From: Limnohabitans sp. TEGF004
GTDB lineage: Bacteria; Pseudomonadota; Gammaproteobacteria; Burkholderiales; Burkholderiaceae_C
Assembly: GCF_027924965.1 (NCBI RefSeq)
Contig: NZ_AP027057.1
Location: 84,920-148,919, forward strand
Direction of reading: 5' to 3'
DNA: 64,000 nucleotides
Shown piece by piece: positions 7,089 through 61,089 of the stretch; the stretch's first letter is position 1; each line of letters begins with the position of its first letter. The notes below the pieces were generated by a model. That model was not told the DNA's origin. It worked only from the letters and a program-made list of their open reading frames with translations, and did no database searches. The position numbers and the translations under genes are program-made.

Positions 7089-7409
7089 ATGGAAGAACAC
7101 ACGATTTTCAAAGGCGCTACGCGCCCCCCGCTTTTGATGGGGGTGCCAATGATCCCTCTCATTCTTCTTGGCTTGAGTTGTCTCTTGCCAATTGGAATTT
7201 TGATCATCGTGTTCCAAAAATTCTTTTTGCCGCTTGTCCTTGCTGTCATCTTTTTCGTTCTGTTTTTCTACATGCGTCATGTCACAAAAAAAGACCCATG
7301 GTTGCTAGAGGCAAAACGAAAAAGACTGATGTTGCGTCGTCGCAAAGGTGATGTCGCTCGGTGGGGTGGTGTGAGTTACGGCCCAACAAATATGAACCGC
7401 AAAAAATAA
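7089..7409 (+). CDS. virB3: VirB3-like inner membrane protein
   Basis: Small T4SS protein associated with VirB4 at the inner membrane. 106 aa with the VirB3 N-terminal motif IFKGATRPPLLMGVP, two adjacent hydrophobic segments (residues ~20-65) and a basic C-terminus (KRKRLMLRRRKG). Full length for the family. It sits 12 bases after virB2 and 2 bases before virB4, the universal B2-B3-B4 order. Confidence 0.9.
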   Translation: MEEHTIFKGATRPPLLMGVPMIPLILLGLSCLLPIGILIIVFQKFFLPLVLAVIFFVLFFYMRHVTKKDPWLLEAKRKRLMLRRRKGDVARWGGVSYGPTNMNRKK

Positions 7410-7411
7410 CC

Positions 7412-9850: not shown

Positions 9851-10944
9851 GAATCGCAGCCCTTTTAGAGTCAAAGATCGATGGCGTCCTGAGCGGTTAT
9901 GTGAATGGCACCAGCGCCGCAGTTGCTGGTTATGCGGGTGGAATTGCTGTCGTAGGTCTCACAATTTATTTGGTCTACATGGGCTACGCATCAGCGCGTG
10001 GTGACTTATCGGAGCCACTTTCAAAGATCATAAAAGACCTTATGAAAATCGCTCTGGTTTTAACTGTTGCACTTGGCGGCGGCGCATACCAAGAATACGT
10101 AATAGGCTTTGCGAATGGGATTACCAGTGACCTGACATTTGCACTAACTCACGGTGCGGCAAAGACTGTTGGTGGTGCCATTGATTACGCGAATTCAGGA
10201 TGCGTCACGCTACCCACAGGGGCTGAATGCATTTCGTATGACAGTGTGTTTCTTGAGATGGCAATTGCGAAAAAAACCTGGGCAGGCATTCCAGATCCAC
10301 TCTATACGGTTGTTTTTCTCATCATCGCGCTTGCTCAATTGGTGGTTTCAGTTCTTTGCATTTTGCCAATCATTCTGGCAAAAACAGGGATGGCATTGAT
10401 GTTGGCTCTTGGGCCTATTTTTGTTCTGTTGGCACTCTTCCCAATCACTACCAAATACTTTGAAGCATGGCTTGCTGCGTTGATCGGATTTGTTATGACA
10501 CAAGTTCTTGTAGCTGGGATATGCAGCGTTGTGCCAGAGATATTTAAAAACTTTCTCGACAAAGCCGTCCAACAGGGCGCAGTTGGTGACGCAACCGTGC
10601 TTGCGGATTCGCTAGCCGTGCTTATCGTGGCCATCGGCTTGGGATTTAGTGCGCTGCATGCCTCTCAAAAAGGCGCACAGCTTGCAGGTGGTGGCATGAG
10701 TATGGACTCCAAAGGTCTTGGCGGCATGGTTACGCAAGCAGTCATGAATCGGCTTATTCAAGGCCCTTCAGGTGGTGGCGCACCAGGTGACGGAAAGTCA
10801 GAGTCTTCAGGCGGTGAAAACTCTGCCTCACTTACACCAAGTAAAGCCTACTTAGCAGGGCAAGCCGTTGGCAGAGCGCCATACACCACGGGCAAAGCCG
10901 TTGGAAATATCTTGAACGCACTTGAGAAAAGAAGAGGGAGATAG
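9847..10944 (+). CDS. virB6: VirB6-like polytopic membrane protein
   Basis: Inner-membrane channel component of the T4SS. 365 aa with an N-terminal segment, then about five to six hydrophobic spans between residues 20 and 290 (for example VVSVLCILPIILAKTGMAL and ALMLALGPIFVLLALFPI) and a soluble glycine/serine-rich tail. The motif LALGPIFVLLALFPxT is the TrbL/VirB6 signature. Translation is coupled to virB4 (ATGA). In this locus virB6 precedes virB5, the reverse of the Agrobacterium order. Confidence 0.9.
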   Translation: MRIAALLESKIDGVLSGYVNGTSAAVAGYAGGIAVVGLTIYLVYMGYASARGDLSEPLSKIIKDLMKIALVLTVALGGGAYQEYVIGFANGITSDLTFALTHGAAKTVGGAIDYANSGCVTLPTGAECISYDSVFLEMAIAKKTWAGIPDPLYTVVFLIIALAQLVVSVLCILPIILAKTGMALMLALGPIFVLLALFPITTKYFEAWLAALIGFVMTQVLVAGICSVVPEIFKNFLDKAVQQGAVGDATVLADSLAVLIVAIGLGFSALHASQKGAQLAGGGMSMDSKGLGGMVTQAVMNRLIQGPSGGGAPGDGKSESSGGENSASLTPSKAYLAGQAVGRAPYTTGKAVGNILNALEKRRGR

Positions 10945-10946
10945 AA

Positions 10947-11540
10947 ATGGAACTCAAACGCATTACTTGTTCACTGTTGTTCGTTGTTTCGATGACTTCA
11001 TTTGGGCAGGGCATACCCGTTTATGACAACACATCTGTCTTAACAGCTATTCAACAGCTGCTTGCTTGGGAAAAACAGTATCAGCAGATGTATCAGCAAT
11101 ACATGAATCAGCTCCAGCAAATCCAGCAGCAGCAACAGCAAATTGCAAACATGAGCGGAACGCGAATGTTGGGCATGGCAAACAACGGGATCACAAATCC
11201 AATTCTGAGCGGTGACATTCAGCAGCAAATGAGCCAAGCCAAATCAAAACAAGCGCTTATCAATACGACAGGCCAGCAGTTAAGGAACCTTATGCAAGCC
11301 AGCCAGGCACGATCCGCGCAAATCCAAGGATTGATGGGGGCCATCAACCAGACAAACGACGCCAAAGGAATTGCAGAACTGACAGCGCGTATCCAAGCTG
11401 AACAAGTCATGACTGCGAACGAAGAAAAAGAAGCACAGCTTCTCAATCAGCTAAAGGTCTTGCAGCACGAACAACGCGACGAAGACTTCAAAGAAGAAAG
11501 CCGAAAAGTTCTCCGACGAACCCGTAGCGCATTTGACTAA
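10947..11540 (+). CDS. virB5: VirB5-like minor pilus protein
   Basis: Predicted periplasmic/pilus-tip component. 197 aa with an N-terminal signal peptide (MELKRITCSLLFVVSMTSFG, cut near residue 20), followed by the VirB5/TrbJ pattern: IPVYDNTSVLTAIQQLLAWEK and a glutamine-rich helical stretch (residues ~45-70) with long helices to the end. Glutamine runs are coded by mixed CAG/CAA and are probably part of the helix. It lies between virB6 and virB8, where virB5 or virB7 is expected. Confidence 0.85.
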   Translation: MELKRITCSLLFVVSMTSFGQGIPVYDNTSVLTAIQQLLAWEKQYQQMYQQYMNQLQQIQQQQQQIANMSGTRMLGMANNGITNPILSGDIQQQMSQAKSKQALINTTGQQLRNLMQASQARSAQIQGLMGAINQTNDAKGIAELTARIQAEQVMTANEEKEAQLLNQLKVLQHEQRDEDFKEESRKVLRRTRSAFD

Positions 11541-11574
11541 ATGTGCGTTCGTTGATGTGCCTGTGATTATTTGA

Positions 11575-12264
11575 ATGAGTTATATGAGCAAAGATCAACT
11601 GACTAAAACCCCCGGCATGGCATTTGAAGCAGTAATTGCACATCGTGCTTACAAAAGTGAGCGCCGTGCATGGCTTGTTGCTGGTGTTGCATCAGCCACA
11701 GCGGTAATAGCAGTTACCGCCGTCGCCGTCATGGTTCCTCTGAAGCAAGTCGTCCCACATTTGGTGTATGTGGATAAGGAAACTGGCGCAACGCAAGTTG
11801 TTAGCGTCGTTGATAGTCGCACGGTTGGCAACGACGACATCAATGCACGTTACTGGCTGGCCCGCTATGTGAAGGCTCGCGAAAGCTATCTCTATAAGCT
11901 TTTGCAAGAGGATTACGACCTCACCATGGCGCTCAGTTCGCCAACTGTAGGTGGTGACTACTCTTCTATCTACGAAGGCCCAAATAACAAATCAACGCGC
12001 TTAGTTGATGCTGTAGAAGAGCGTATTCACATCATCAGTGCCGAACCAACACCCGGTGTTTCAGGTCGCGGCACCGTGCGGTTTGAAAAGACAACGTGGC
12101 GCGTTGGTCTTCGTCAAGCAGAGAAGACAGAGACGTATCAAGCTGACGTTGCCTTTGAATGGAAGCCAATTACGGGTTGGGGCGTAAATGACTTGCTCAA
12201 AAACCCATTGGGTTTTGCGGTCACTGCATATCGCGCAACACCTGAGATGGCAGCAGCACGATGA
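11575..12264 (+). CDS. virB8: VirB8 inner-membrane scaffold protein
   Basis: Bitopic assembly factor of the T4SS core. 229 aa: short cytoplasmic N-terminus, one membrane segment (LVAGVASATAVIAVTAVAVM, residues ~35-54) and a periplasmic NTF2-like domain with RYVKARESYLYKLLQEDYD and VEERIHIISAEPTP, ending in the conserved NPLGFAVTAYRATPE block. A second ATG lies nine bases inside. The stop overlaps virB9 by four bases. Confidence 0.92.
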   Translation: MSYMSKDQLTKTPGMAFEAVIAHRAYKSERRAWLVAGVASATAVIAVTAVAVMVPLKQVVPHLVYVDKETGATQVVSVVDSRTVGNDDINARYWLARYVKARESYLYKLLQEDYDLTMALSSPTVGGDYSSIYEGPNNKSTRLVDAVEERIHIISAEPTPGVSGRGTVRFEKTTWRVGLRQAEKTETYQADVAFEWKPITGWGVNDLLKNPLGFAVTAYRATPEMAAAR

Positions 12265-13166
12265 AACGCGCAACCATACTTTTTCTTACCTTGTTCGCAC
12301 TTGTTGCGCAGGCTGATTTGGTTCCCGTTAAAGGGCAGTCAGATTTGCGGGTCCGCTATGCCGATTACAAGCCAGACGATGTTGTTGTTGTCGCAGTTGC
12401 CTTGGGCGTAATGACACGCGTGGTTCTGAATTCAGACGAAACCATTGTGAAGGCTGAGCCCGGCTTCCCGAGTAACTGCGAGAGAGCGGGCGACGAATGG
12501 TGCATCAAGGCAGAGCCGGGCACTAATCAAATCTGGGTGAATCCACGCAGCCGTGCAACCAAAAACAATCTAGAAATTAGCACCAACAAGCGGGATTACA
12601 GCCTCAAATTCGTGGTGATGCCGGGCCAAGAAAACGCACCTACTGTTTACTACCGGGTGATCTTCAGATATGCCTTGCCGCCCGTTCCAATGAAAGTTGC
12701 AGCGAAAGGCGCACCAGACATGCCTGCGGCAGAAGAGGCTGCGCCTGATGTCCAGTCGCAAGATTTCTCGGAACCAATTGTCCGTAACGCAAATTACTCA
12801 AAGCAGACAGCAGCAGATTCTGAAGAAATTGCCCCAAGTGTCGTGTTTGATGACGGACGTTTTACGTATTTTCGTTATCCCAAGAACCGCGAAATTCCTG
12901 CAATTTTTGCTATTGGTCCAGCAGGCGAAGAAATACGCGTGAATACCCATTCAGCCCGTTTGAGCGCTGACCCTGAGAACCCAAAAGCTCGCGTAACCAA
13001 CGACTATTTGGTTGTTCAGCGCTTGTCTAAAAAGTTCATCCTTCGACTCGGCTCAGCTGTGGTGAACATCCTCAACGAAGAGTTTGATGCAAACGGTATC
13101 GAAACATGGAACGGCACGACTACGCCTAACTTGGTTCGTAAAAACAAGGCAGTGGAGCCGAAATGA
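12261..13166 (+). CDS. virB9: VirB9 outer-membrane complex protein
   Basis: Periplasmic component of the T4SS core complex with VirB7/VirB10. 301 aa with a cleavable signal peptide (cut near ALVAQA, residue 18), an N-terminal beta domain (DLRVRYADYKPDDVV), a linker, and the conserved C-terminal domain with NANYSKQ, VVFDDGRFTYFRYP and IPAIFAIGPAGEE. No VirB7-type lipoprotein was found near it, so VirB7 is missing, very short or elsewhere. Overlaps virB10 by four bases. Confidence 0.93.
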   Translation: MKRATILFLTLFALVAQADLVPVKGQSDLRVRYADYKPDDVVVVAVALGVMTRVVLNSDETIVKAEPGFPSNCERAGDEWCIKAEPGTNQIWVNPRSRATKNNLEISTNKRDYSLKFVVMPGQENAPTVYYRVIFRYALPPVPMKVAAKGAPDMPAAEEAAPDVQSQDFSEPIVRNANYSKQTAADSEEIAPSVVFDDGRFTYFRYPKNREIPAIFAIGPAGEEIRVNTHSARLSADPENPKARVTNDYLVVQRLSKKFILRLGSAVVNILNEEFDANGIETWNGTTTPNLVRKNKAVEPK

Positions 13167-14536
13167 ACGAAATAGACCGCATGGTTGAAGGCCCAAATCC
13201 AGACATCAATTCGATTGGCGCACAGCCGCGCAAGGTGTCTTGGAAAGTGATTGGCTTCGCCGTTTTTTGTATCGTGCTTTTTGTTATTGCAATAGTTTTT
13301 GCTTTGCGAATGCTTGGCCATAAAGCAGTTTCATTGGTCGAGCCGCAGAAGAAAGAGGTTGTGGCACCACCTCCACCCAAAGGCGCAGCTAGTTTCGCCG
13401 CAGAGCCATTTACAGCTCAAGGTGCTGATGTTGGACCTCAAGGCGGCACATCTGCATCAAATGGGAAGAAGTGCGAAGACTCGGTGTTGATAGACAAAAA
13501 CACCGGAAGACCAGTTAAGGACGCAAACGGCACATCGATTCTGGTGAATTGCCAAGGCGTTGTGATTGGAGCGAAGATTCCAGCCCCTCAGAACACAGGC
13601 AACGCAACACAACCAAAATTCGACAACGGTCAAACAAAGCCACTTGATCGTTATAGCGGGGACATTTCTCTTTCTAGCGGCTCTTCAAATGGTCCGGCCC
13701 AAGCCATGGGTGTCAAAGGTTTAGGCGGATTCGGCTTGCCCGGTGGCTTTCCTGCGCCTCCCACAGATTCCACCAAAACCATCATGGACCATCTGCAACG
13801 TCTACAAAACCCATCACAAGCGAACGGGGCGGCTTTGCAAGGAGGTGGACAACAGCAAGGTGCGTCTGCAAATGCACAGGGGCCAGTTGGCAATAACCTC
13901 AGTGGGGCGAATACTCCAAAAGCTATTGCCGCAAAGACGATTGATGAGAACCGCGTCATTTCTAAGGGCGCTCAAATTGATTGCGCTTTGACGACTCGCG
14001 TGGTGACAGACATAAGCGGATTCGCCTCATGCATCGTCACTTCTAACGTGTATTCAGCGAATGGTCGAACTTTGCTGATTGAGCGCATGAGCGAAGTTCA
14101 AGGGGAATACGGAGCCTCTGGCCAGCCCGGTCAGCGCCGTGTTTTTGTTCTTTGGACACGTATTCGGATGCCCGGGGGCGTCACCATTGACTTGAACAGC
14201 CCCTCAACAGACTCATTGGGCGCAGCAGGCATGGACGGCCTCATTGATAACCGCTGGTGGGAGCGTATTGGTTCCGCGTACATGCTGTCTTTTTACAAAG
14301 ACATCATGGCGTACGAGATTGCCAAGAACACGAACACCAACACTTCTGGTGGTGCCACGGTCCTTCAAAACACCACCCAAACTTCATCAAGCTTGGCCGA
14401 GAAAGTGTTGTCTCAGTCGATCAACATCAAACCGACTCTGTATGCGAATCAAGGCGACCGCGTCGCTATTTATGTCGCTCGTGATTTGGAATTCAAGGAA
14501 GTCTATGACGTTGTTAAATCCAAACGCGAACAGTGA
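13163..14536 (+). CDS. virB10: VirB10 core-complex protein
   Basis: Spans inner and outer membranes and senses energy from the ATPases. 457 aa: cytoplasmic N-terminus, one membrane segment (VIGFAVFCIVLFVIAIVFAL, residues ~30-49), a proline-rich periplasmic region (VVAPPPPKG), and the C-terminal TrbI/VirB10 barrel with VISKGAQIDCALTTRV, GRTLLIERMSEVQGEY, FVLWTRIRMPGGVTI and the final LYANQGDRVAIYVARDLEF. Complete; the virB11 start lies inside its 3' end. Confidence 0.95.
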   Translation: MNEIDRMVEGPNPDINSIGAQPRKVSWKVIGFAVFCIVLFVIAIVFALRMLGHKAVSLVEPQKKEVVAPPPPKGAASFAAEPFTAQGADVGPQGGTSASNGKKCEDSVLIDKNTGRPVKDANGTSILVNCQGVVIGAKIPAPQNTGNATQPKFDNGQTKPLDRYSGDISLSSGSSNGPAQAMGVKGLGGFGLPGGFPAPPTDSTKTIMDHLQRLQNPSQANGAALQGGGQQQGASANAQGPVGNNLSGANTPKAIAAKTIDENRVISKGAQIDCALTTRVVTDISGFASCIVTSNVYSANGRTLLIERMSEVQGEYGASGQPGQRRVFVLWTRIRMPGGVTIDLNSPSTDSLGAAGMDGLIDNRWWERIGSAYMLSFYKDIMAYEIAKNTNTNTSGGATVLQNTTQTSSSLAEKVLSQSINIKPTLYANQGDRVAIYVARDLEFKEVYDVVKSKREQ

Positions 14537-15629
14537 CACGTTGAGTCGCGACGCGTCAGTCATTGAGCTGATGCGCCCGATTACAGAGCTAATTGCAGCC
14601 AATCCGGGTGTGACAGAAGTAACTATGTATAAGCCCGGAGAGTTCTTTTTGTCCATTCATGGGCAATGGGAACGTCACTATCTTCCAAGCATGAATTACA
14701 AACAATGTTTGGCCGTTGCTGAGAGCGTGGGATATCGATCAGATCAGGTAATTGGGTCACGGACACCATTGCTTTCTGCAACTTTGCCCAACGGTGAACG
14801 CATGCAAATTGTGGTCCCACCTGCTGTTGAGCCCGGGACTATTAGTTTTTCAATACGTATCCCGTCAACCGATATTCGCTCACTTGAGCAGTACGAGGCA
14901 GACGGAGCATTTGAGCGCTTTGTCTGGGTGGAGTCTCAAGCGTTGCAAAACAAGCCAGAAGGACTCAATATGACAGACAAGCACCTTTGCGCTCTTTTGT
15001 CAGACCGGAAGCTCAAAGAGTTTCTGATCGCAGCAGTCATTGCCAAAAAGAACATTGCAGTAGTTGGTGACACAGGCTCAGGGAAGACAACGCTGATGAA
15101 GTCGATGTGCGAACACATTCCATCGACAGAACGATTGATCACCATTGAAGACGTGCGCGAATTGTTCTTACCGAAGCACGACAACAAGGTTCACTTGATT
15201 TACAGCAAAGGCGGGCAGGGCGTTGCCAACGTCACTCCTGCCGACTTGATCGCATCCACGATGCGAATGAAGCCGGACCGTGTTTTGCTTGCAGAGCTGC
15301 GCGGCGGTGAGGCATTTGACTTCTTGAAGCTTTTGACCACCGGACACTCAGGGTCAATCACGAGTTATCACGCTGAAAGCTGTGCGCTTTCCTATGAACG
15401 TTACGTGTTCATGGCGAAGGAGCACCCAGATGCTGCAATCTTTACAGATGTTTCCTTGAAGCGCTTGGTGTCTCTCACGATTGATGTCGTTATTCATATC
15501 ACCTGCAAGAAGGTATATGACGACAAAGGCGAGGTTAAAGGCGTTGAACGCTTCGTGACTGAAGTGGACTTTGATCCAGCCAGAAAACTTGCGTTGCAAG
15601 TTGGCGAAGGGACGCTCCATCATGCGTGA
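14505..15629 (+). CDS. virB11: VirB11 secretion ATPase
   Basis: Hexameric cytoplasmic ATPase that switches the T4SS between pilus assembly and DNA transfer. 374 aa from the ATG at 14505, preceded by AAGGA; it overlaps virB10 by 32 bases. Seen: N-terminal domain (VIELMRPITELIAANPGVTEV), Walker A GDTGSGKTTL at about residues 188-197, ITIEDVREL (Asp box), MRMKPDRVLLAELRGGEAF (Walker B region) and TGHSGSITSYHA (His box). All catalytic blocks intact. Confidence 0.94.
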   Translation: MTLLNPNANSDTLSRDASVIELMRPITELIAANPGVTEVTMYKPGEFFLSIHGQWERHYLPSMNYKQCLAVAESVGYRSDQVIGSRTPLLSATLPNGERMQIVVPPAVEPGTISFSIRIPSTDIRSLEQYEADGAFERFVWVESQALQNKPEGLNMTDKHLCALLSDRKLKEFLIAAVIAKKNIAVVGDTGSGKTTLMKSMCEHIPSTERLITIEDVRELFLPKHDNKVHLIYSKGGQGVANVTPADLIASTMRMKPDRVLLAELRGGEAFDFLKLLTTGHSGSITSYHAESCALSYERYVFMAKEHPDAAIFTDVSLKRLVSLTIDVVIHITCKKVYDDKGEVKGVERFVTEVDFDPARKLALQVGEGTLHHA

Positions 15630-17583
15630 TTTCAAACAACACCAGCACGTCTTGGCGACTATCGTCGTAGTCGCACTTGTGATCGTTTGGCCTTACTTTA
15701 CGGTGTGGGGATTCAATCTCTTTGGTTCCATGGAGTTTCCAAAGTCACCTCTCACCATCCTTGAATACTTCATCAGTTACGGATTTTCCAATCGCCGATT
15801 TAATCTAGCGATTGAGCTGGCGTTTGCTGTGATTTTTGTTATCGGTCTTCTGACCCTGATTTCGATTTACAAAGACCGTCGCGCCCTTCACGGTGATGCA
15901 CGTTTCGCAACACTCAAGGAAGTTGAAGAAGCCGGACTTTTGGGTAAGCGCGGCCTCATCCTTGGAAAATTCAAGGGCAAATATTTAGTCTTTGATGGTC
16001 AGCAGTTTGTGTTGCTTGCCGCCCCCACGCGCTCCGGGAAAGGCGTTGGTTGTGTGATTCCAAACTTGCTCAACTGGCAAGGATCAGTTGTTGGCCTCGA
16101 CGTCAAACTTGAAAACTGGCAATTGACCAGCAAGTTCCGTCAAAAAATACTTGGGCAAGAGACCTACCTTTTCAACCCCTTTGCGGCAGACCGCAAAACT
16201 CATCGCTGGAATCCGCTAGACAGCGTCAGTCGAGACCCGTTTATCACTCCCGGTGATGTGTTGCAAATTGCTCAGATTTTTTACCCAAGCAAAGAGTCTG
16301 ACAAGAATCGTTTTTTCAACGATCAAGCGCAAAACCTTTTCCTTGGTTTGACGCTGTACCTCATCGAAACAAATCATCCCCGTTGCACGTTGGGAGAAGT
16401 GTTTCGTCAAGGCTCTGGCTATGACAAGTCGCTGCCAAAGCACATCCACGACATTCTAGAAAAGACCCCAAATTTGAGCCGCCAATGTCGCGACGCCCTG
16501 AGCCGTGCTTTGTCAGCCCCAGAGGAAACATTTGGAAATATCAAGTCAAGCTTTGATGCGCCGCTTTTGATGTTTGCAAATCCAATGGTGGATGCTGCAA
16601 CAAGTGCCAGCGACTTTAGCCTTGCTGATATTCGCCGCAAGAAAATTTCAATCTATTTCGGTATTTCACCCAACCGCCTAGAAACGGCTGCACGCCTAAT
16701 CAATTTGTTCTTCACTCAAACAATCAGTTTGAATACAGGCGTGTTGCCCGAAGCTGACAAGAGCTTGAAATATCAATGTTTGGTGTTGCTCGATGAGTTC
16801 ACAGCATTTGGTCGAGTTGGCATTGTTGCCAAGGCCGTTTCATACATTGCTGGTTACAACTTGCGATTACTGACCATCATCCAAAGCAAATCGCAACTCG
16901 AAGGTGAGGGCCTTTATTCAAAAGCCGATGCTCGCAACATGATCACGAACCATGAAGTGCGAATTATTTTCCCTCCCGGCGATGACCAAGAAGCAAAAGA
17001 TGCGTCGGAAATGCTTGGCTACTACACAACTAAATCTGAATCTGTTTCATCAAACCATAGTGGCCACTTCTTGACAGTGAACGGCAACTCATCTGGGGGC
17101 ACCAGCATCAGCGATCAGCGCCGCGCACTGATGATGCCCCAAGAATTGAAGCAAATGCCTTCATCGCAGTCAATCATTGACAAGCAGGGCACGCCCCCCG
17201 TGCTGTGCGACAAGGTACGTTACTTCGAAGACGCAGTGTTTATTGACCGCCTCAAGTCAGTGTCCCCATTACTTGCTGAGCTTGGTCGCAAAACCCCAAC
17301 TAGAGACCAACTTGATGCTGCTCGCATTGCGGGTGAGCTTGCCTCGTTTGTCCCCAATGTTTTGCCACAAACCATTCCAGATAACCAACTTGACTCTGAG
17401 AAGGAGAACGACGTGTTCGCCAATATGACAGAAGCAGAAATTGAAGCTGCGGCAGTTGCGCTTGCCGCAAAGCTTCCCGACTTTGCCGCCCTTGATACAC
17501 ACGCCGATTTCAAGGCAGTGGTTCAAGAAGAATTTTTCAGCATGTTTTTTTCATCTGGAGGTGTCAGCCATGCGCGCATCTGA
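15622..17583 (+). CDS. virD4: VirD4/TraG coupling protein
   Basis: Inner-membrane ATPase that delivers the relaxase-DNA complex to the T4SS. 653 aa from the ATG at 15622 (the frame is open upstream inside virB11). Two N-terminal membrane segments (residues ~10-30 and ~60-85), Walker A APTRSGKGVG at about 134-143, and Walker B CLVLLDEFTAFG around 387-398, followed by IIQSKSQLEGEGLYS. Overlaps virB11 by eight bases. The C-terminal ~90 residues are acidic and variable, as usual for relaxosome recognition. Confidence 0.95.
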   Translation: MRDFKQHQHVLATIVVVALVIVWPYFTVWGFNLFGSMEFPKSPLTILEYFISYGFSNRRFNLAIELAFAVIFVIGLLTLISIYKDRRALHGDARFATLKEVEEAGLLGKRGLILGKFKGKYLVFDGQQFVLLAAPTRSGKGVGCVIPNLLNWQGSVVGLDVKLENWQLTSKFRQKILGQETYLFNPFAADRKTHRWNPLDSVSRDPFITPGDVLQIAQIFYPSKESDKNRFFNDQAQNLFLGLTLYLIETNHPRCTLGEVFRQGSGYDKSLPKHIHDILEKTPNLSRQCRDALSRALSAPEETFGNIKSSFDAPLLMFANPMVDAATSASDFSLADIRRKKISIYFGISPNRLETAARLINLFFTQTISLNTGVLPEADKSLKYQCLVLLDEFTAFGRVGIVAKAVSYIAGYNLRLLTIIQSKSQLEGEGLYSKADARNMITNHEVRIIFPPGDDQEAKDASEMLGYYTTKSESVSSNHSGHFLTVNGNSSGGTSISDQRRALMMPQELKQMPSSQSIIDKQGTPPVLCDKVRYFEDAVFIDRLKSVSPLLAELGRKTPTRDQLDAARIAGELASFVPNVLPQTIPDNQLDSEKENDVFANMTEAEIEAAAVALAAKLPDFAALDTHADFKAVVQEEFFSMFFSSGGVSHARI

Positions 17584-41835: not shown

Positions 41836-42873
41836 TTAAAGCCTCGGTTTAATCGTTGGTGTCAACTTGATGGCCACGCCATGGTTTTGCATGGTTCGTT
41901 GCAGGTCACGAGCCAAAGCACGATCTGATTGATCTGGGCTGACGGCTAAAGCCTGTGCCATATGCGTATACGCATTGACCACCTTTTTTTCGTTTTCTTG
42001 AGCCCGCTCTACCGCCTTGGGTTGAGCCTCTGCCGTCTTTACTCGGTCGGGGGTAATGCCCCTATCTTTCATTTGTCTCATCGCTTGGCTTTCACCCTTT
42101 GGTCGCTGCAAGCGGGTGCGTCGTCGAGTGGCAACGGCCTCGATGCCACGATCATTCAACTGTTTGGCAAAAGCAATACGCCATTGCTCCAAATCCGCTT
42201 TGCGGGGATTCATTCGCTGCCCGTCTAATCCGACCATCTTGACGGCTACGTGGGCATGCTGACTGTCTGTATCGCTGTGATGTGCGATTACATATTGGTG
42301 ATTTGAAAAAAGCTCTTTAGCAGTAGCACGCGCTGCAGCTTTGACCTTTTCGCGGTCTACGCCTGCGGGCATAGACAAAATCACATTCAACGCTTCGCGA
42401 CGTGGTTTTTTCACCTTGCCGTCCGAACCAATGAATTCATGGGCTTCTGGTGGTATTGGAGCGCCCGCAATTTGCCACTGCTCTTTGAGCATGGCACGTG
42501 CTTCTTTGCCGCGCACCACTAGGCCCTCTTCAGTTTCAAGCTCTAACTCTTCCTCGCCTTTTTTCTTGTACTTGCCACCACGGGCGATGTAGTCGATGTG
42601 CGAACCAATACGCTTCATATCTGACCCGCCGCCAGTGATCTTCACGACAACTTGTGGCAAGTTACGCACCACGCCAACCAGGTTGTCACGCACCGCTTTT
42701 GGAGTCAATCCAGACGCCTTGGGGGTTGCCTTTGGCCCCTCAATCACGCTGCCAATCATGTTCAAGATTCGCTTTGTTTCGTCCTTGCCTTTTTTAACTG
42801 GCTTACGCTCAGACCAAACCAAATCTTCGCCCCAATGGACCAAGACGTTATCTACATGCTGTTTTGTGGCCAC
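41836..42873 (-). CDS. MOBP-family relaxase
   Basis: Nicks oriT and leads the T-strand into the recipient. 345 aa from GTG at 42873 (AGGGG upstream). Motif I SHIDYIARGGK with the candidate catalytic Tyr (residue ~95), and motif III HAHVAVKMV preceded by VIAHHSDTDSQ. This is the Relaxase PF03432 layout, shorter than RP4 TraI and without a primase/helicase domain. The MobC-like gene is immediately upstream and the candidate nick site lies about 1.8 kb upstream. Confidence 0.9.
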   Translation of the reverse strand: MATKQHVDNVLVHWGEDLVWSERKPVKKGKDETKRILNMIGSVIEGPKATPKASGLTPKAVRDNLVGVVRNLPQVVVKITGGGSDMKRIGSHIDYIARGGKYKKKGEEELELETEEGLVVRGKEARAMLKEQWQIAGAPIPPEAHEFIGSDGKVKKPRREALNVILSMPAGVDREKVKAAARATAKELFSNHQYVIAHHSDTDSQHAHVAVKMVGLDGQRMNPRKADLEQWRIAFAKQLNDRGIEAVATRRRTRLQRPKGESQAMRQMKDRGITPDRVKTAEAQPKAVERAQENEKKVVNAYTHMAQALAVSPDQSDRALARDLQRTMQNHGVAIKLTPTIKPRL

Positions 42874-53808: not shown

Positions 53809-54666
53809 TTAGAGTTTCATTTTTGGTGCTGACACCTTAACGGCAGGTAAAGATGAGCGACCTACCTGTTGAGGGTCAAAAGTACGAACACCATCGTCAA
53901 GACGTTTTCCAAGCTCAAGTGTGGTTGTCTTCAAAAACACATCAAGCGTTTTATCCTTCAAACCCGCCTTCATCGCGGCGTCTTTGACTGCATCAAGCGT
54001 TTTATAAGCAGCTTCTAGGTCTGGATAAATTCGTAGCGCGACTTCACGATCTGCTCGTTCAAAGAGCACAGCACGCGGGTCACGTACAGCATGCATTAGA
54101 ACGTCTGTCACCATTGACAAATCACCATTGAAGCTTCGCTTTGATGCCTCATTCCATTGGCCATCATTGTTTTCTATTCGCTGGACATCCAGCATCCATC
54201 CGGCGTTAGCTGCGAGCTGCCCCATCATCATCCGAGTAGACCTACCATTGCCTTCGCGGAATGGATGAACCGCATTCCACATCTTGTAGTAGCCTGCCAA
54301 CCGTTGCGCAAACTCTGGACGACTCAAATCTTTAAGATAGTTCTCAGATTCAAGGCTGCGTTGAATGCCATCCGTGGCCGCAGCTATCCGTGTGCATTTT
54401 TCAAAGACAGTGCCGCCTTTGCTTATGTCGATGATCCGTGGTTCACCTGCCCACTCATAAACATCTTGGAAAAGGTATTGGTGAATCGATTTGAAATGCT
54501 CCAAGTCAAATGAACCCGTCACACCTTTGGCGGCTAACTCCTGCGAGCGCAGACGCGCAAACATCTCTTCACTGAGAGATAGCTCATACCGATCTGTAAT
54601 ACCAAGTTTGTTTCTCAGGACCGTGGCACCGGGGTCCATGTATGGGTCTTGGAACCCCTCGCTCAT
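53809..54666 (-). CDS. Fic-domain toxin (VbhT-like AMP transferase)
   Basis: 285 aa. The Fic motif HPFREGNGRSTR (catalytic His near residue 134) is exact, with the N-terminal VbhT-type region (DPGATVLRNKLGIT) and the flap segment ISKGGTVFEK. Fic enzymes transfer AMP to target proteins; VbhT-class enzymes AMPylate topoisomerases. There is no BID secretion domain; the C-terminal ~110 residues are helical. Coupled to its antitoxin by ATGA. Intact catalytic site. Confidence 0.9.
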   Translation of the reverse strand: MSEGFQDPYMDPGATVLRNKLGITDRYELSLSEEMFARLRSQELAAKGVTGSFDLEHFKSIHQYLFQDVYEWAGEPRIIDISKGGTVFEKCTRIAAATDGIQRSLESENYLKDLSRPEFAQRLAGYYKMWNAVHPFREGNGRSTRMMMGQLAANAGWMLDVQRIENNDGQWNEASKRSFNGDLSMVTDVLMHAVRDPRAVLFERADREVALRIYPDLEAAYKTLDAVKDAAMKAGLKDKTLDVFLKTTTLELGKRLDDGVRTFDPQQVGRSSLPAVKVSAPKMKL

Positions 54667-54878
54667 TGCTGACGCGCTTTGATTTCACCGATCCATTGAG
54701 CGCGTAACTGATCGCCAGTTATTTCGCCAGCGATGACTTTATTCACTTCACCGATTGACTTCTGGCCGGGCTCTACACCTTCAATGCGCGAACTGGCAAT
54801 AGCCATACCATGCGCGATTTTTGGTTCAGAGTAAGCAGCCAAGGCTTTGGTTTGTTGATCATTCATGTTGTTGTACAT
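54663..54878 (-). CDS. VbhA-type antitoxin of the Fic module
   Basis: 71 aa with AAGGA upstream. Contains the class I Fic inhibitory motif [S/T]xxxE[G/N] as SSRIEG (residues ~29-34) in the segment IASSRIEGVEPGQKS, then VNKVIAGEITGDQLRAQWI, the antitoxin_VbhA pattern. The Glu blocks ATP binding in the Fic active site. Gene order antitoxin-toxin with a 4-base overlap fits. Confidence 0.88.
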   Translation of the reverse strand: MYNNMNDQQTKALAAYSEPKIAHGMAIASSRIEGVEPGQKSIGEVNKVIAGEITGDQLRAQWIGEIKARQQ

Positions 54879-54926: not shown

Positions 54927-55093
54927 ACTGTTTGCAATACGTCTCGGCATGTTTACCGTTGAACTAGGTTTAACCAAACGGCGGCAAGTAAAATGAACCT
55001 TCGCGACCGGATGTGAGCATTAGCCGCAATCCACGTAGGGCCGCTGAAACTGCCTTTACGTGGTTCGAAAAACTCAACCCTCCTAAATGCCAC

Positions 55094-55552
55094 ATGCCTA
55101 TTAATTTCAGCCCCAAAGTCGGGCAAGTCCTTGAGTGCAATTACGGGGAATACACACTCGACACAAATGGCATACCGACAAGCGCACCAGACCACCACAT
55201 CCCCCCAGAAATGATTAAGAACCGTCTGATGGTTGTTCTCAATGGCAAAGTTTCAGGCTCGTCGTGTTTGGTAGTTCCGTTGTCAACAACACACGACCTA
55301 CAAAAAACTCACAAAGGCTGGCACGTTGAGATTGCAGAGGATGAGATACCAGAGCTGAAATACTTTGTCCAAAGTGTTCGCTGGGCGAAAGCGGACATGG
55401 TGCAACAAGTAAGCAGGGTTAGACTAAATCGACCTAGGTCTACCCGTGGCCATGATGAAACAAAGATTTCTTTTGCTAGCGTTGACAAGATTCAACGTGC
55501 CGTTATTAAGGCCATCAGCGCAGGTAGTTTGTTGGCCGCTGTAAATACGTAA
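55094..55552 (+). CDS. PemK/MazF-like toxin family protein, unpaired
   Basis: 152 aa from the ATG at 55094 (the frame opens at 55013 without a better start). N-terminus INFSPKVGQVLECNYGEY, then HHIPPEMIKNRLMVVLNGKV and SCLVVPLSTTHD correspond to the PemK-like beta barrel, with the motif PPEMxKxRxxVVL typical of this long subgroup. The C-terminal part (WAKADMVQQVSRVRLNR) also fits. No antitoxin gene lies on either side. It may be an orphan ribonuclease, or the antitoxin may be too small or elsewhere. Confidence 0.7.
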   Translation: MPINFSPKVGQVLECNYGEYTLDTNGIPTSAPDHHIPPEMIKNRLMVVLNGKVSGSSCLVVPLSTTHDLQKTHKGWHVEIAEDEIPELKYFVQSVRWAKADMVQQVSRVRLNRPRSTRGHDETKISFASVDKIQRAVIKAISAGSLLAAVNT

Positions 55553-55565
55553 ACCAGAAAGGCGA

Positions 55566-55586
55566 AAGCCCAGCATAGCTGGGCTT
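55566..55586. terminator. Hairpin after the PemK-like gene
   Basis: AAGCCCAGC / GCTGGGCTT with loop ATA, 14 bases after the stop. No T-run follows on the + strand, so termination is uncertain. Confidence 0.45.
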
Positions 55587-55745
55587 CGCGGGTCCCTCAA
55601 GGGGAAAATACACAATGGCCTCTAAGGGCAACGCTTCAATAGTATCACAGATGTGAATTATTACAAACGACCATCTTCGAGTGGGCCCCAGCCACCATAT
55701 GGGCTGTGTATGCGATTGGCCAACACAAGACCGACCAGAAGATAG
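55587..55745. other. Gene-free stretch between convergent genes
   Basis: Part of the 350-base gap 55,553-55,902. No start-signal-bearing frame on either strand. Nothing recognisable apart from the two flanking hairpins. Confidence 0.4.
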
Positions 55746-55776
55746 AAAAAAGCGCTCAAAACTCGTGTTTAAGCGC
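55746..55776 (-). terminator. Terminator of the RelA/SpoT-TPR gene
   Basis: Read leftward: stem GCGCTTAAAC / GTTTTGAGCGC, 4-base loop, then six T. It lies about 125 bases after the stop of the leftward gene at 55,903. Confidence 0.7.
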
Positions 55777-55902
55777 CCTACTTCGCCTGCTACTATCGTT
55801 TGATACGATATAGATTATGTAAAATTTAAGAATCGTTGATCTGAATTACTACATTGTTATTTTCATCTTGTTCGATTTGGTTGAGCACCGTCGTTCTTTG
55901 CT

Positions 55903-57342
55903 TTACCCTTTTAAAAGGGCAAATACACGAGAAACTCTTTCTCTTACAGGGCCTCCTCTTTTTTCAAATCCCATCTCCAGATATCGAAGTGGGGACAATC
56001 CGTAATTGAACCATTGCATTGCTGCAAGCTCTTCTTTTAAATTATGGCAGCAATCAGAAATCTCCAAATCAACAATGGCTGCATTGATCGCACGCAGCGA
56101 TAACGAATTAATTTTCATTGGACTTTCAGGATTCGGAGTGAATTGATCTAGAAGATATGTCGACCCATCTACATCATTAATTAATGAGCAGGCCATTGCC
56201 TTGTTGAAGGTCGCGAATACCCAAGGAAGACCCAAATCTTGGGCTTTAGAATATTCTTTGAAAGCATCCTCTCCTTCGCCTCGAGCTAATTGATTATTAG
56301 CCATCGTAGACAATCTCCAGCCTTCTGACGTTGCAGTTGATGGTGATAAGAGGCCTTCTGAAATCTTTCTATGCAGAACTGCAATGGCAACATCGGTTGC
56401 ATTTAGACCTTTTGCGGATTCCAGATCTGAAAGAGCCGCAGATCGATTGCCCCCGAGAAACTGTGCCTTCGCGCGCCCGATGTAGAGAGTGTACGAATCA
56501 GGCTGCTCATTAATTAATTTTGTGTAATGCGAAATAGCCTCAGTATAGTTACCGGCGAGAACCAGCTCTCTAGCTCTCGTAGAATTGGAATGCAGCGTTA
56601 CCGCATCTTTCACTTCTTTGCCTTGAGTATTTAATTTTCTGTTCGCAGTGGCCGTTGAGTCCATCTCAGCTGTGAATAAGTCATCTTCAAGAGACGACTG
56701 CAGTCCCTGTCTAAGCTTCGCATCTTCGTCCTGAACTGCTTGAAACTCTCGGTCGGCAATTTCTAGCATTCCAGCCAGAGCAATAAAGCGTTTCTGAATA
56801 GAAGTAGGAATTTGATCGGCTGATTTGTATTGAATGTCATGCTCCATCTCTGCCCACGCATGCTGCAAGATTGTCCTCACTTGAATTTCAGCAACCAAAT
56901 TATTATACTTTTGGTATTCGACTAACGTTTTTCTGTTGAGATTTAGCTTCACAAGATAGTGAATACTTTTATACCCCAGACGTCTTTGTGAGAATCGTTC
57001 TTCTCCCATGTCTTTTTTTTCGGTTACTTCAAACTCTTTTTCGATGATCTGACAAATCTGTTCTAATGATTTTGGGAAAAAGGCTATCACGCGTACTCCG
57101 GCGAGGTCTGTAATCTCCGAGAGAGGTTCTGAATACTTTGGGGTTGATTTAACGTCGTCAATTACTTTTTCTGCTTTCTTTCGAAAACTATCGACGCTCT
57201 TAGCGCGAAACTCAATCGAGTGAACACCAAAGTCTTTAGAGATAGCAATGTCGAGAATGCTTCTAACAGCCTGCGCGAATTCTTGATATAAAGGCAGTGA
57301 GTCCTGATAAGAGACAAGTGCGTCATCCAGTTTTGTAGCCAT
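55903..57342 (-). CDS. RelA/SpoT alarmone-synthetase domain fused to TPR-like repeats
   Basis: 479 aa from the ATG at 57342 (GGAG six bases before; a TTG at 57354 is less likely). Residues ~20-210 form a RelA/SpoT synthetase domain: EFRAKSVDSFRKKAEKVI, ITDLAGVRVIAFFP, RLGYKSIHYLVKL and AEIQVRTILQHAWAEMEHDI, i.e. all the ATP/GTP-binding blocks, with no hydrolase domain. Residues ~255-470 look like TPR repeats (ARELVLAGNYTEAISHYTKL; AKAQFLGGNRSAALSDLESA). In known toxic SAS proteins the synthetase makes (p)ppApp or pyrophosphorylates tRNA; a TPR region could sense a trigger or bind partners. It stands alone, low in GC, with its own terminator. Catalytic competence is inferred from conserved residues. 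Confidence 0.85.
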   Translation of the reverse strand: MATKLDDALVSYQDSLPLYQEFAQAVRSILDIAISKDFGVHSIEFRAKSVDSFRKKAEKVIDDVKSTPKYSEPLSEITDLAGVRVIAFFPKSLEQICQIIEKEFEVTEKKDMGEERFSQRRLGYKSIHYLVKLNLNRKTLVEYQKYNNLVAEIQVRTILQHAWAEMEHDIQYKSADQIPTSIQKRFIALAGMLEIADREFQAVQDEDAKLRQGLQSSLEDDLFTAEMDSTATANRKLNTQGKEVKDAVTLHSNSTRARELVLAGNYTEAISHYTKLINEQPDSYTLYIGRAKAQFLGGNRSAALSDLESAKGLNATDVAIAVLHRKISEGLLSPSTATSEGWRLSTMANNQLARGEGEDAFKEYSKAQDLGLPWVFATFNKAMACSLINDVDGSTYLLDQFTPNPESPMKINSLSLRAINAAIVDLEISDCCHNLKEELAAMQWFNYGLSPLRYLEMGFEKRGGPVRERVSRVFALLKG

Positions 57343-57443
57343 TAAATTCTCCAAATTACATGAAAATCTACCCTATATAGTTAATATAGCATGTCATTGA
57401 ACTGATCACTTTTTCCACCTCGTGTGCGATGAGTCCATCACCG

Positions 57444-58631
57444 CTAGACAGCACTGGAAACATCTTCATCTTCACCCAACATGAACTTTTGAATCGTGGC
57501 AAAGATGATGCCGCCGGATGGCCGGTTGTCTAGCAGCTCACGCAGTTTTTGGCGCGTGGTGGCTTGCTGTGGTTGCTCACGCAACAAGTCTTGGCTCAGG
57601 CTGAACACACCCAGCAGTTGACCATCTAAATCATTGCGGTCGGTGATCACCACAATCGTCGGGTTCTCTAGCTTGGGCTCTTGCATCACACGTGCTGCAA
57701 AGCACGTCATAGTGATGCTTTTGCCACTACCTTGCGTATGCCACACCACGCCGCCCTTGCCGCGTGTTTTGGCGTCGTCGGTGCTTGATGCTTGCACCAC
57801 CTGCTCGATCGCGGCACGCACGGCATGAAACTGGTGGTAGCCCGCCACCTTCTTAACCAAGTGACCATCGTCTTCAAACAACACAAAGAAGCGCAGATAG
57901 TCCAGCAAATACGCAGGGGCCAACACGCCGCGCACCATGGTTTCTAGCTCGCGCAATTCACCAAGTGGGTCAAGCGCCACGCCGTCAATCGTGCGCCACT
58001 GCATGAAACGCTCGGCATTTGCTGAGAGCGAACCCATGCGTGCGTCTGTGCCATCTGAGATAACCAACAACTCGTTGTAAGTAAACACATCGGCGATTTG
58101 CTCTTTGTAGGTATGTATTTGGTCGTAGGCCTTCCAAATATCGGCATTCACGTCAGCGGGGTTCTTTAACTCGACCAGCACCAGCGGTAAGCCGTTGATG
58201 AACAAAATAATGTCAGGCCTGCGCGTGTGACGCGGCCCTTTGATGGTGAACTGCTGCACCGCCAGCCACTCGTTGGCTGCTGTGTTGTGCCAATCAACCA
58301 AGCGGACAAAGTCGCCACGCGTTTCGCCATTGAGTTGGTATTGCACCGGCACACCCGCCACCAGCACGCGGTGGAAAGCGCGGTTGCCCGACAACAACGC
58401 AGGCTGCCCCATGTCTAGCACTTGCTTGTAGGCATCCTCGTGTGCGCTACTGGGCATGTGCGGGTTTAGGCGCGCAATGGCGGCTCGCAGGCTGACCGCC
58501 AACAAGACCTCACGCGTGCTGCCGCGCTCTAGCCTTGGGTCAAGGTGGTCTAGGTCGCGAGCATTGAGCGGCGTGTAGCCTACAGAGGCCAGCCAACCAA
58601 GGGCTTCTTGTTCTAGTTGGTCTTCAGTCAT
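57444..58631 (-). pseudogene. hsdR: Type I restriction subunit R, 5' fragment
   Basis: 395 codons remain of about 1000. The N-terminal nuclease domain is intact (RRPDIILFINGLPLVLVELK, the PD-(D/E)xK Asp...ELK motif) and the first helicase motif is present (VVWHTQGSGKSITM, Walker A). The frame ends shortly after IIFATIQKFMLGEDED; the usual FPVLS continuation is still readable in the +1 frame (MFPVLSS), indicating a one-base frameshift, and homology stops altogether near 57,437, before the DEAH box. Restriction activity must be lost. The matching hsdM is also truncated (60,743-61,089). Confidence 0.88.
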
Positions 58632-58790: not shown

Positions 58791-59078
58791 ATGCAACTCA
58801 TCGGTCTGATCAGGCTCGATGCCTTCAAACTCAGTCATGCCAACGCACGAGGCGCCTTAGATGCATGGCAACTGGAAGTTGAGCGATCTCATTGGTCTGG
58901 GCCACAGGATGTGAAAAACCGCTATCCGAGCGCCAGTTTCTTGAGCGATAACAAAGTCATTTTCAACATCAAAGGAAATAACTACCGCTTGGTCGTCAAG
59001 GCCAAATATGAAAAAGGAATTGTCTTGATCGAGTGGGTGGGCACGCACGCCGAATACAGCAAACAGAACTTCCAATGA
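58791..59078 (+). CDS. higB: HigB-type mRNA interferase toxin
   Basis: 95 aa. Matches the HigB family (HigB_toxin): ARGALDAWQLEVERSHWSGP, then SASFLSDNKVIFNIKGNNYR and KAKYEKGIVLIEWVGTHAEY, with the C-terminal His/Tyr pair of the RNase site. Toxin-first order is normal for hig. Its stop overlaps a possible upstream ATG of the antitoxin. Full length. Confidence 0.9.
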   Translation: MQLIGLIRLDAFKLSHANARGALDAWQLEVERSHWSGPQDVKNRYPSASFLSDNKVIFNIKGNNYRLVVKAKYEKGIVLIEWVGTHAEYSKQNFQ

Positions 59079-59113
59079 GTTCACAAGTGCCCCACCGACA
59101 ACAGGAGAACAGC

Positions 59114-60331
59114 ATGAAAAACAACGTTCGCTTAATCAAAACCGAAGCTGAATACGAGATCGCTCTGACTCGTTTGTCTGATCTGATGGACAAAGACATC
59201 AAAGCAGGCTCTGGCTTGGAAGACGAGCTGGACTTGCTTGCCTTGGTTATTCGTGAGTATGAACGTAGCAAAGTAGCGGCGCCTGTTGCAGACCCTATTG
59301 AAGCCATTTTGTTTCGCATGGATCAGCAAGGTTTGCAAAAGAAAGACTTGGTCCCTTACTTTGGCTCACTACCCAAGGTGTCCGAAGTTTTAAGCCGCAA
59401 ACGGCCACTCACACTAGCGATGATTCGCAAGCTGCACACAGGTCTAGGAATTGCAGCAGAAACGCTGTTATTAGGTGACGATGGCATTGATCTGTCTGAT
59501 GCTCCCGCCTACGACCACACGAAGTTCCCTCTACAAGAAATGTTCAAGCGGGGCTACTTCAAATCTACTTTTGACACCATCCGAAAAGTCAAAGACCACG
59601 CAGAGGAGGCAATTAGAGAGTTCATGCAGAACTCTCATTTGCAGCCAGCTCGCTTGAGGGCGCCATTGCATCAAAAAGGTGTTCGGACCATGGACGAATA
59701 CGCATTACTAGCTTGGCGAGTCGCTGTATTAAAGAAAGCTCGCGCGCTGAAACTGACTCGTGAATATGTCAAAGGGTCCATCACTGATGCATGGCTCAGC
59801 GATTTGGCAAAACTTTCACGCTTCGACCAAGGCCCACGGCTTGCACAAGAGTTTTTGGCTGACGCTGGAATTGCCTTAGTTTTTGAAGATCACTTTGACA
59901 AAACTTATTTGGATGGCGCCGCAATGCTTGATGGTTCTCGTCCCGTCGTTGCCTTAACTTTGCGTCATGATCGATTAGACAATTTTTGGTTTGCACTCCT
60001 GCATGAGCTAGTGCACGTTCAAAAACATCTAGATTCAGACAATGATTTCATTGCCGACAACCTAGAAGACAAAATTCAAATGCAAACCCGTGACGAACAG
60101 GAAGCGGACGAAGGGGCCAAACAGGCATTGATCGCGCCTGAAGAATGGGAAAACTCAGCGGTACGCCTTGAACACAACACAGAAAACGCCAAGGCTTTGG
60201 CCGATAAATTGCGAATTCACCCGGTTATCGTTGCTGGCCGTGTTCGCCATGACACAGGCAATTGGCGATTGCTGAGCAACATCAAAGCGACTGTCAGACA
60301 GCACTTTGAGTCAGCAGGAGTAACCGCATAG
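59114..60331 (+). CDS. higA: HigA-type antitoxin fused to an ImmA/IrrE metalloprotease
   Basis: 405 aa from the ATG at 59114 (GGAG six bases upstream; an ATG at 59075 is open but less well supported). Residues ~1-120 are HigA-like: LLALVIREYERSK, then an XRE HTH (FRMDQQGLQKKDLVPYFGSL, VSEVLSRKRPLTLAMIRKLH). The C-terminal ~200 residues contain an ImmA/IrrE zinc protease domain with HELVHVQKH (residues ~297-305) and a downstream EQEADEGAKQAL, the third ligand region. ImmA-type proteases cleave repressors in response to stress; fused here, the antitoxin could control its own stability or that of another repressor. Confidence 0.88.
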   Translation: MKNNVRLIKTEAEYEIALTRLSDLMDKDIKAGSGLEDELDLLALVIREYERSKVAAPVADPIEAILFRMDQQGLQKKDLVPYFGSLPKVSEVLSRKRPLTLAMIRKLHTGLGIAAETLLLGDDGIDLSDAPAYDHTKFPLQEMFKRGYFKSTFDTIRKVKDHAEEAIREFMQNSHLQPARLRAPLHQKGVRTMDEYALLAWRVAVLKKARALKLTREYVKGSITDAWLSDLAKLSRFDQGPRLAQEFLADAGIALVFEDHFDKTYLDGAAMLDGSRPVVALTLRHDRLDNFWFALLHELVHVQKHLDSDNDFIADNLEDKIQMQTRDEQEADEGAKQALIAPEEWENSAVRLEHNTENAKALADKLRIHPVIVAGRVRHDTGNWRLLSNIKATVRQHFESAGVTA

Positions 60332-60666: not shown

Positions 60667-60742
60667 TCACATTGATGCACTTTGAACTTTAAGAGGTATT
60701 TAGATGGCCACTAAAAAAATCGCCGATGAGCAAACATCTGCT

Positions 60743-61089
60743 CGCGTAAGAGCATCGTCGATGCGCTTGCCAATGTCAGGCTGAGGCGCGGCGGCGCGAA
60801 GCTGTGTCCAACGTGTGCCCTCAGGCACCCAAAACACGTTGGCAGCTGTGAAGTAGTCGCGGTCTTCTAGCTCGGCGGCAATGTCGGCCTCCGACGCGCC
60901 GCCAAAGTACAGCTCGTCTTTGGGGTTTTGCAGGCGCTCGGTCAGGTTGGCTTTGTGGGCTTCAAAACTATCACTGATGTATTTGATGAAGATGAGGCCG
61001 AGCACCAAGTGCTTGTATTCGGCAGCGTCCATGTTGGCGCGGAGTTTGTCGGCAGATGCCCAGAGGGTCTTTTTGATGTCGTCGAGCAT
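60743..61089 (-). pseudogene. hsdM: Type I methylase subunit M, 5' fragment
   Basis: The ATG at 61089 has GGAGG upstream. About 115 codons are HsdM N-terminal domain (LDDIKKTLWASADKLRANMD, then HLVLGLIFIKYISDSFEAHK, ANVFWVPEGTRW and PDIGKRIDDAL). After RIDDAL (about 60,743) homology stops; the frame runs 14 codons further through foreign DNA to 60,700. The SAM and NPPY motifs are missing, so it cannot methylate. On the opposite strand the foreign side carries AAGAGG and an ATG (60704) with MATKKIADEQTSA, the start of another truncated gene. This marks a deletion or recombination junction. Confidence 0.85.

Follow-up and report, generated by a model that had tools for sequence, protein, structure and literature searches.

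The locus treated here raises the question of what a small alarmone synthetase (SAS) joined to a TPR-like region is doing beside restriction and toxin-antitoxin genes: whether it serves phage defense, tunes the stress physiology of its host or is simply carried along. The window, i.e., the whole stretch of 64,000 nucleotides from Limnohabitans sp. TEGF004 that was analyzed, forms the end of a plasmid-like contig of 148,919 bp. No tRNA genes were found on this contig, and a type IV secretion set at 7361–17583 and a relaxase at 41836–42873 of the window were read by eye from the ORF list. The gene represents an accessory, uncharacterized lineage of alarmone synthetase that is probably gated by its TPR half, and for which a role in defense is plausible but unproven.

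The open reading frame given in the preliminary description was borne out, though on the minus strand, with its start ATG at 57342, its stop ending at 55903 and a product of 479 aa. An alternative in-frame TTG at 57354 would extend the protein to 483 aa; the ATG is preferred because a GGAG sits six bases ahead of it. The three synthetase motifs quoted earlier are all present in the translation, and the synthetase domain is followed by a conserved helix (LAGMLEIADREF; family consensus RRFxALAGLLEIADREFQ) reaching approximately residue 212 in the invariant columns of a 35-row family alignment. A variable linker, TPR units, weaker TPR-like sequence and a tail with the motif SPLRxLE complete the domain order (Table 1). 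The earlier reading as a synthetase without hydrolase domain also held, as Pfam matched RelA_SpoT at residues 46–175 and no HD domain, the HD hydrolase family being absent among the 12 Pfam families listed. The protein has the sequence features of a SAS, namely a synthetase domain whose donor and G-loop residues are intact and no HD domain (Pfam), and the two HD_4 matches of the genome lie in its two long RSHs. Identity as a housekeeping RSH was ruled out by the missing HD match and by the presence of these long RSHs elsewhere, on the other contig.

Table 1. Features of the SAS-TPR gene and its surroundings in the window (aa, amino acids).
Feature	Position	Strand	Evidence
VbhA-like antitoxin and Fic protein	53809..54878	minus	Pfam
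PemK/MazF-like protein	55013..55552	plus	Pfam E 8.9e-7
Terminator-like hairpin with T run	55749..55779	minus	3' of gene; such sites at chance level (4 found, 3.6 expected)
SAS-TPR gene, 479 aa	55903..57342	minus	Intact open frame, domain matches, homologues
Conserved tail motif SPLRYLE	55975..55995 (residues 450-456)	minus	S450, P451, L452 in >=90% of 35 rows
Weaker TPR-like stretch	56113..56325 (residues 340-410)	minus	C-terminal profile self-comparison, DsRel TPR match, family-profile matches
Firm TPR units	56386..56589 (residues 252-319)	minus	Pfam, phmmer and family-profile matches; hhalign to DsRel TPR prob 98.1
RelA_SpoT synthetase domain	56818..57207 (residues 46-175)	minus	Pfam E 1.2e-18, above cut-off
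GGAG, likely ribosome-binding site	57349..57352	minus	Read in sequence, six bases before ATG
HsdR N-terminal fragment, type I restriction, 395 aa	57444..58631	minus	Pfam, PADLOC
PD-Lambda-2 A (HigB-type toxin)	58791..59078	plus	PADLOC E 4e-45; Pfam HigB_toxin 1e-27
PD-Lambda-2 B	59033..60331	plus	PADLOC E 1.4e-152
HsdM N-terminal fragment	60700..61089	minus	Pfam, PADLOC

Concerning the active site, ten ATP/Mg contacts of FaRel2 are named in a figure legend (PMC11782079), and their counterparts here, mapped by reading motif spacing, are R46, K48, S52, K56, K59 (for R77), D79, G82, R84, E152, and Q154. Seven of these donor positions are invariant over the 35 rows and S52 is kept in at least 90% of them; K59 and G82 vary. 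The G-loop tyrosine is Y124, equivalent to Y155 of CapRel, and pyrophosphokinase activity of the protein is highly probable. On the acceptor side, QHAWAEMEHDIQYK retains the E-H...Y-K pattern of alarmone synthetases, present as well in 21/21 TPR-type rows, 2/2 RelQ rows, YwaC (the RelP row) and those seven of the eight DsRel rows in which the script located the pattern, whereas CapRel has QHAWATSLEIIDTLENIK at this motif, without E-H...Y-K. Ahead of the R-x-K motif, the window protein has a net charge of -4 in 45 residues versus +6 in 78 residues of CapRel; the charge ranges from -5 to +4 across the 35 family rows; tRNA binding by FaRel2 requires a basic patch including K28 and R29 (PMC11559606). 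Because the donor residues have counterparts and E-H...Y-K, missing from CapRel, is retained, a nucleotide product is favored over tRNA modification, and the kept acceptor pattern together with the acidic stretch before the donor motif (basic in CapRel) points to a nucleotide acceptor, an argument that depends on one short motif plus charge. The product is thus probably a nucleotide alarmone rather than a modified tRNA, and the acceptor, as far as the motif tells, most likely GDP or GTP and less likely ADP/ATP. GDP is preferred by the Treponema enzyme Tde-SAS (PMC10434055).

The same residues bear on a CapRel-like fused toxin-antitoxin, in which the N-terminal domain would pyrophosphorylate the CCA ends of tRNAs, with the TPR half as antitoxin and phage sensor at once. 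CapRel of Salmonella phage SJ46 is likewise a single gene on a mobile element that couples a synthetase to a regulatory C-terminal half, and the fused single-gene design, the defense-linked surroundings at some loci and a QHAW motif common to both proteins, followed by a stretch of similar pattern, are in its favor. However, the identity is only 26% over 177 residues, the acceptor-side residues kept in the window protein are missing from CapRel, the N-terminal stretch is acidic rather than basic, and the profile searches placed TPRs and no pZFD-type domain in the C-terminal half, while CapRel is described with a pseudo-zinc-finger C-terminal half and a tRNA substrate. We regard a CapRel-like mode of action as improbable, and the analogy drawn previously with toxSAS enzymes and CapRel is weakened by this distance and by the acceptor-side difference.

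For the C-terminal half, the single-sequence Pfam matches at residues 255–312 (TPR_19, E-value = 3e-4; TPR_2, E-value = 5e-4) both lie under the curated cut-offs. The TPR chains of DnaJC3 match the window protein (E-value = 1.6e-6), the 35-row family profile matches DnaJC3 over residues 247–320 (E-value = 1.1e-14) and its weaker TPR matches jointly span approximately 221 to 442. A profile of the C-terminal half also aligned with the DsRel-like TPR domain (hhalign prob 98.1, E-value = 1.3e-13, 145 columns). By these profiles the C-terminal half is predicted to adopt a TPR fold, in agreement with the preliminary description; its estimate of approximately 220 residues of repeats stood as to kind and shrank in extent to about two firm units. 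Nor do the repeats run to the C-terminal end, since the last 60 residues carry the family motif SPLRxLE and no recognized TPR.

The combination had been presented as one without match among described systems, but SAS-TPR fusions (DsRel) are published, including a TPR half with a tested regulatory role (PMC10434055). Tde-SAS (TDE1711, Treponema denticola) similarly has an N-terminal SAS with synthesis motifs, a linker and a C-terminal TPR half; it differs in having four TPRs in 410 aa, versus 440–540 aa and an SPLRxLE tail in the window family. In Tde-SAS the TPR half restrains ppGpp synthesis: its removal increased catalytic efficiency by a factor of 12 to 26, and the authors of that study speculate that the brake is lifted by a bound protein (PMC10434055). 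As the architecture resembles that of Tde-SAS, the same gate is expected in the window protein, and by this precedent we lean toward the TPR half acting as a brake, a contact between TPR half and synthetase being assumed. DsRel proteins have been reported from spirochetes and Deltaproteobacteria, and the word TPR is absent from the main text of a 2011 survey of SAS genes (PMC3153485). An open-access literature search, with the main toxSAS classification paper outside its reach, returned no paper on this exact lineage.

Of 7998 candidates scored in the protein search, 2408 matched at E ≤ 1e-3, far beyond chance, with identities of 36–59% among the 120 matches listed, the window's own excluded. 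Together with the window protein (P0001) these make 121 sequences, of which 113 passed a filter for 440–540 aa and an initial M, two sequences being left out by hand. A scan of genome contigs led to 72 loci, only four of which (L009–L012) carry a TPR half of the window type. Another C-terminal domain, of approximately 140 aa, bears our own label RQGQ, after a motif within it, and occurs at 33 to 39 of the 72 loci; the count of 39 is by a profile that extends over 30 residues from the end of the synthetase, for which reason six hits in Cetobacterium may be spurious. Eight loci (L071–L078), in spirochetes and delta-type bacteria, are DsRel-like, a label resting on architecture and hosts, as Tde-SAS itself was not among the rows; at the remaining loci the synthetase stands by itself, is joined to other C-terminal parts or lies in a cut frame. 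With such varied C-terminal halves on one synthetase domain, this domain seems to be a module whose partners can be exchanged. No relationship was seen between the TPR half and the RQGQ domain (hhalign prob 1.3). The latter, with its RQGQ...RFE motif, was seen at L013–L039, L042, L044–L046, L066, and L081, in many phyla, and in L028, the sole example scanned, Pfam matched RelA_SpoT alone.

In a tree of the synthetase domain built from a reduced, hand-picked set of 59 rows, RelP/RelQ and the eight DsRel-like rows form separate clades, each with 100/100 support, and the window protein lies outside both. It falls in a set of 23 rows (96/88) together with RQGQ proteins, within a broader, weakly supported group (86/56) of all TPR-type and RQGQ-type rows. 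The protein is therefore not a DsRel by clade: it has the SAS-then-TPR architecture, and its synthetase stands outside the DsRel clade. L071–L078 share 25–29% identity with it over the best tblastn segment, and none of them shows the SPLRxLE tail. As to RelQ/RelP, donor and acceptor motifs are common to both groups (phmmer E-value = 2.9e-12 to YwaC and 3.1e-10 to YjbM), but those chains have 209–255 aa and no C-terminal TPR half. The reading of a synthetase that does not cluster with RelP/RelQ is upheld by the phylogeny. Branches were very long in a first tree, which took in CapRel and one long RSH (the second left out), and CapRel, on an end branch of 7.6, was too distant to place; trees were rebuilt without seven rows and as the 59-row set. 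The trees disagree in that the first groups eighteen TPR-type rows (93) and puts three elsewhere, whereas the 59-row tree nests RQGQ among the TPR-type. When TPR-type and DsRel rows were forced together in an 81-row tree, the cost was 10.4 log-likelihood units, which is not rejected (p-AU 0.284); the two kinds of TPR fusion may share one origin. At 45–50% synthetase identity, the C-terminal halves of the TPR-type average 30.4% identity (32.0% without the linker; 2446 pairs), compared to 36.1% for DsRel (5 pairs) and 42.9% for the RQGQ group (64 pairs), a difference that is no more than suggestive, given unequal linkers and family depths. An arms race, of which a faster-changing TPR half would be a sign, was for these reasons not adopted as a reading.

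Two further collections hold families that match the N-terminal part. PADLOC PDC-S33 matches residues 55–279 (E-value = 6.4e-15) and phrog_9640 residues 4–231 (E-value = 8.2e-58), both leaving most of the C-terminal half uncovered. From our reading of the PDC label, PDC-S33 is a candidate single-gene defense family; the name occurred in no paper found by the open-access literature search. The RelA nucleotidyltransferase domain has been cited as a nucleotide-generating effector in prokaryotic conflict systems, where it is described as an infrequent part of vWA-MoxR ternary systems and not as a stand-alone SAS-TPR gene (PMC7159879).

The gene is accessory, with a sparse and patchy distribution like that of mobile cargo. 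The whole protein was found in 1/61 genomes of the genus, its own included, and in 1/27 of the well-assembled ones (at least 90% completeness, at most 5% contamination). Among the matches listed, both halves were matched by the family profile in its own genome only of 369 in the class, in two of 399 genomes of its order (its own and G1196), and, for the class of the Kordiimonas genome G431, in the seed genome only of 386. The gene has a GC content of 0.426 and a GC3 of 0.381, compared to 0.50 for the window, and we infer plasmid-borne mobility. The 2011 survey likewise describes SAS genes as generally scattered, with much horizontal transfer inferred (PMC3153485). In phage and plasmid records there was no relative covering 80% of the query, and a scan of viral contigs gave two relatives only, both matching by the synthetase domain alone. 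More distant synthetase relatives (28–32% identity over 41–63% of the query) are carried by a filamentous phage of Vibrio, a mycobacterial prophage and a Klebsiella plasmid of 3.5 kb. This last one, pZZW20-3.5K (L145), has 3508 bp and four annotated genes, one of them for a 378-aa protein that contains a relative of the synthetase domain.

This distribution bears on a second explanation, that of a DsRel-like regulator which would tune ppGpp under host stress, take no part in phage defense and spread as ordinary plasmid cargo. With Tde-SAS, an E. coli relA spoT mutant regained growth and showed no toxic effects, and service in the stringent response was proposed for the enzyme (PMC10434055). 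By eye, L011 lies near hslUV-like genes and L010 among metabolic-looking genes, which would also suit such a regulator. The hosts of L009–L012 each have at least one further RelA_SpoT frame of long-RSH size (736–862 aa), so that their stringent response need not rely on the SAS-TPR gene, and by the same token a regulatory add-on role fits as well. Against pure stress regulation stand the two long RSHs with HD-domain matches that the Limnohabitans host already has on another contig, the very sparse distribution and the defense genes that adjoin some loci and sister proteins. We consider it unlikely. Should it prove right, the gene would add an accessory branch, mainly proteobacterial here, to an architecture first characterized in one spirochete.

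As for the defense genes next to the locus, the description of restriction and toxin-antitoxin remnants was accurate for the hsdR and hsdM fragments and not for PD-Lambda-2, whose A and B genes (58791–60331) have near-full model length and sit between the type I restriction fragments. The setting beside defense genes was upheld, as the gene lies next to the PD-Lambda-2 pair and the broken-up type I restriction genes. The HsdR fragment ends 101 bp upstream of the SAS gene on the same strand, and DNA similarity to the hsdR of other plasmids stops at approximately 57443–57463 in most of the longest matches. That the gene stands alone on its own transcript was not confirmed, since it trails the hsdR fragment by this gap, in which no promoter-like site was found; the nearest one on the same strand is weak and lies at 57532–57505, inside the HsdR fragment. 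No direct or inverted repeats of at least 9 bases, as insertion scars, were found between 55553–55902 and 57343–57480, and a search for a close plasmid backbone for an empty-site comparison returned four records with short matches only.

The gene could also be a silent passenger, left behind where recombination joined it to a decaying restriction locus and unexpressed in its host. The truncated hsdR ahead of it, the gap lacking a recognizable promoter and the end of hsdR similarity about 100 bp ahead of the gene start all agree with this, but a fully open frame, an intact active site, a good ribosome-binding site and the weak promoter-like site further upstream speak against it. A silent passenger appears very improbable.

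Recognized defense neighbors were present at three of six loci with the window architecture: the window itself, L009, where an AAA_13/PDC-S06 gene lies downstream, and L012, where the genes ahead of the SAS-TPR gene encode an integrase, an MmeI-type restriction-methylase, a DEAD helicase and a T5orf172 protein. None was recognized at L010, L011, or L140, the last with uncertain gene calls because of its apparent high GC. An extended scan added 28 neighbors (8 of L010, 9 of L011, 6 of L140, 3 of L009, 2 of L012), which yielded against PADLOC one family with one member, RTasPolA, presumably the gene at L012 for a DNA polymerase I-like protein. For the sister proteins, approximately 10/93 neighbors of the RQGQ type had PADLOC matches at 1e-10, versus 2/72 beside other relatives (one-sided Fisher test, p 0.045 for a count of exactly 10). 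The former count is approximate, being read from 25 of 38 families, where proteins may match several families and unlisted ones may add. The sample comprised up to two mechanically called ORFs per side at 24 RQGQ-type and 18 other loci, hand-chosen for usable flanks, and the control set included L061 and L063, two loci among the RQGQ profile hits.

Bringing these lines together, our leading, though tentative, reading is a gated nucleotide synthetase with defense as its main role, and this is also the most interesting one for the window gene. The protein would be a horizontally moved small alarmone synthetase whose TPR half restrains the enzyme, lowering catalysis in the resting cell. On binding of a protein ligand to the TPR surface, the N-terminal domain would transfer pyrophosphate from ATP onto a purine nucleotide, and the resulting alarmone would slow growth. 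We infer that the ligand would most likely be a phage product or an infection-altered host protein, and the gene would most probably act as a single-gene, growth-arresting defense carried as plasmid cargo. A wider proposal joins the loci into a mobile immune family, in which one alarmone-making domain would be combined with swappable sensors at its C-terminal side (TPR, the RQGQ domain, short domains or, in some members, a region of approximately 800 residues without Pfam matches); the window protein would be its TPR form, arresting growth through a nucleotide alarmone and not through tRNA modification once a phage protein sits on the TPR surface. Taken as a whole, this wider proposal is doubtful. 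While the SAS-TPR architecture is already known, the separate accessory lineage outside the DsRel clade is new. If the proposal were true, phages would trigger a defense that consists of alarmone synthesis itself and has an interchangeable sensor, unlike CapRel with its modification of tRNA, and sensing by the TPR half of SAS-TPR enzymes would become testable with a single gene in a laboratory strain.

Finally, some minor observations were made. Outside the window, the same contig (C2) bears a 3745-bp repeat at approximately 7410–11154 and 78225–81969, 99.97% identical and probably a two-copy mobile element. One of the relatives, P0082 (528 aa), has two synthetase domains in tandem, as judged by eye. 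Large proteins of 994–1024 aa, with an N-terminal RelA_SpoT-type domain and approximately 800 C-terminal residues, are encoded at L135:2019-5039, L136:2047-5085, L137:1557-4628, L138:2134-5115, and L139:2066-5065; in those of L135, L137, and L138, which were scanned, no Pfam match besides the RelA_SpoT-type one was obtained at 0.05. The large synthetase protein of L135 is followed by a Schlafen AlbA_2-Fic protein.
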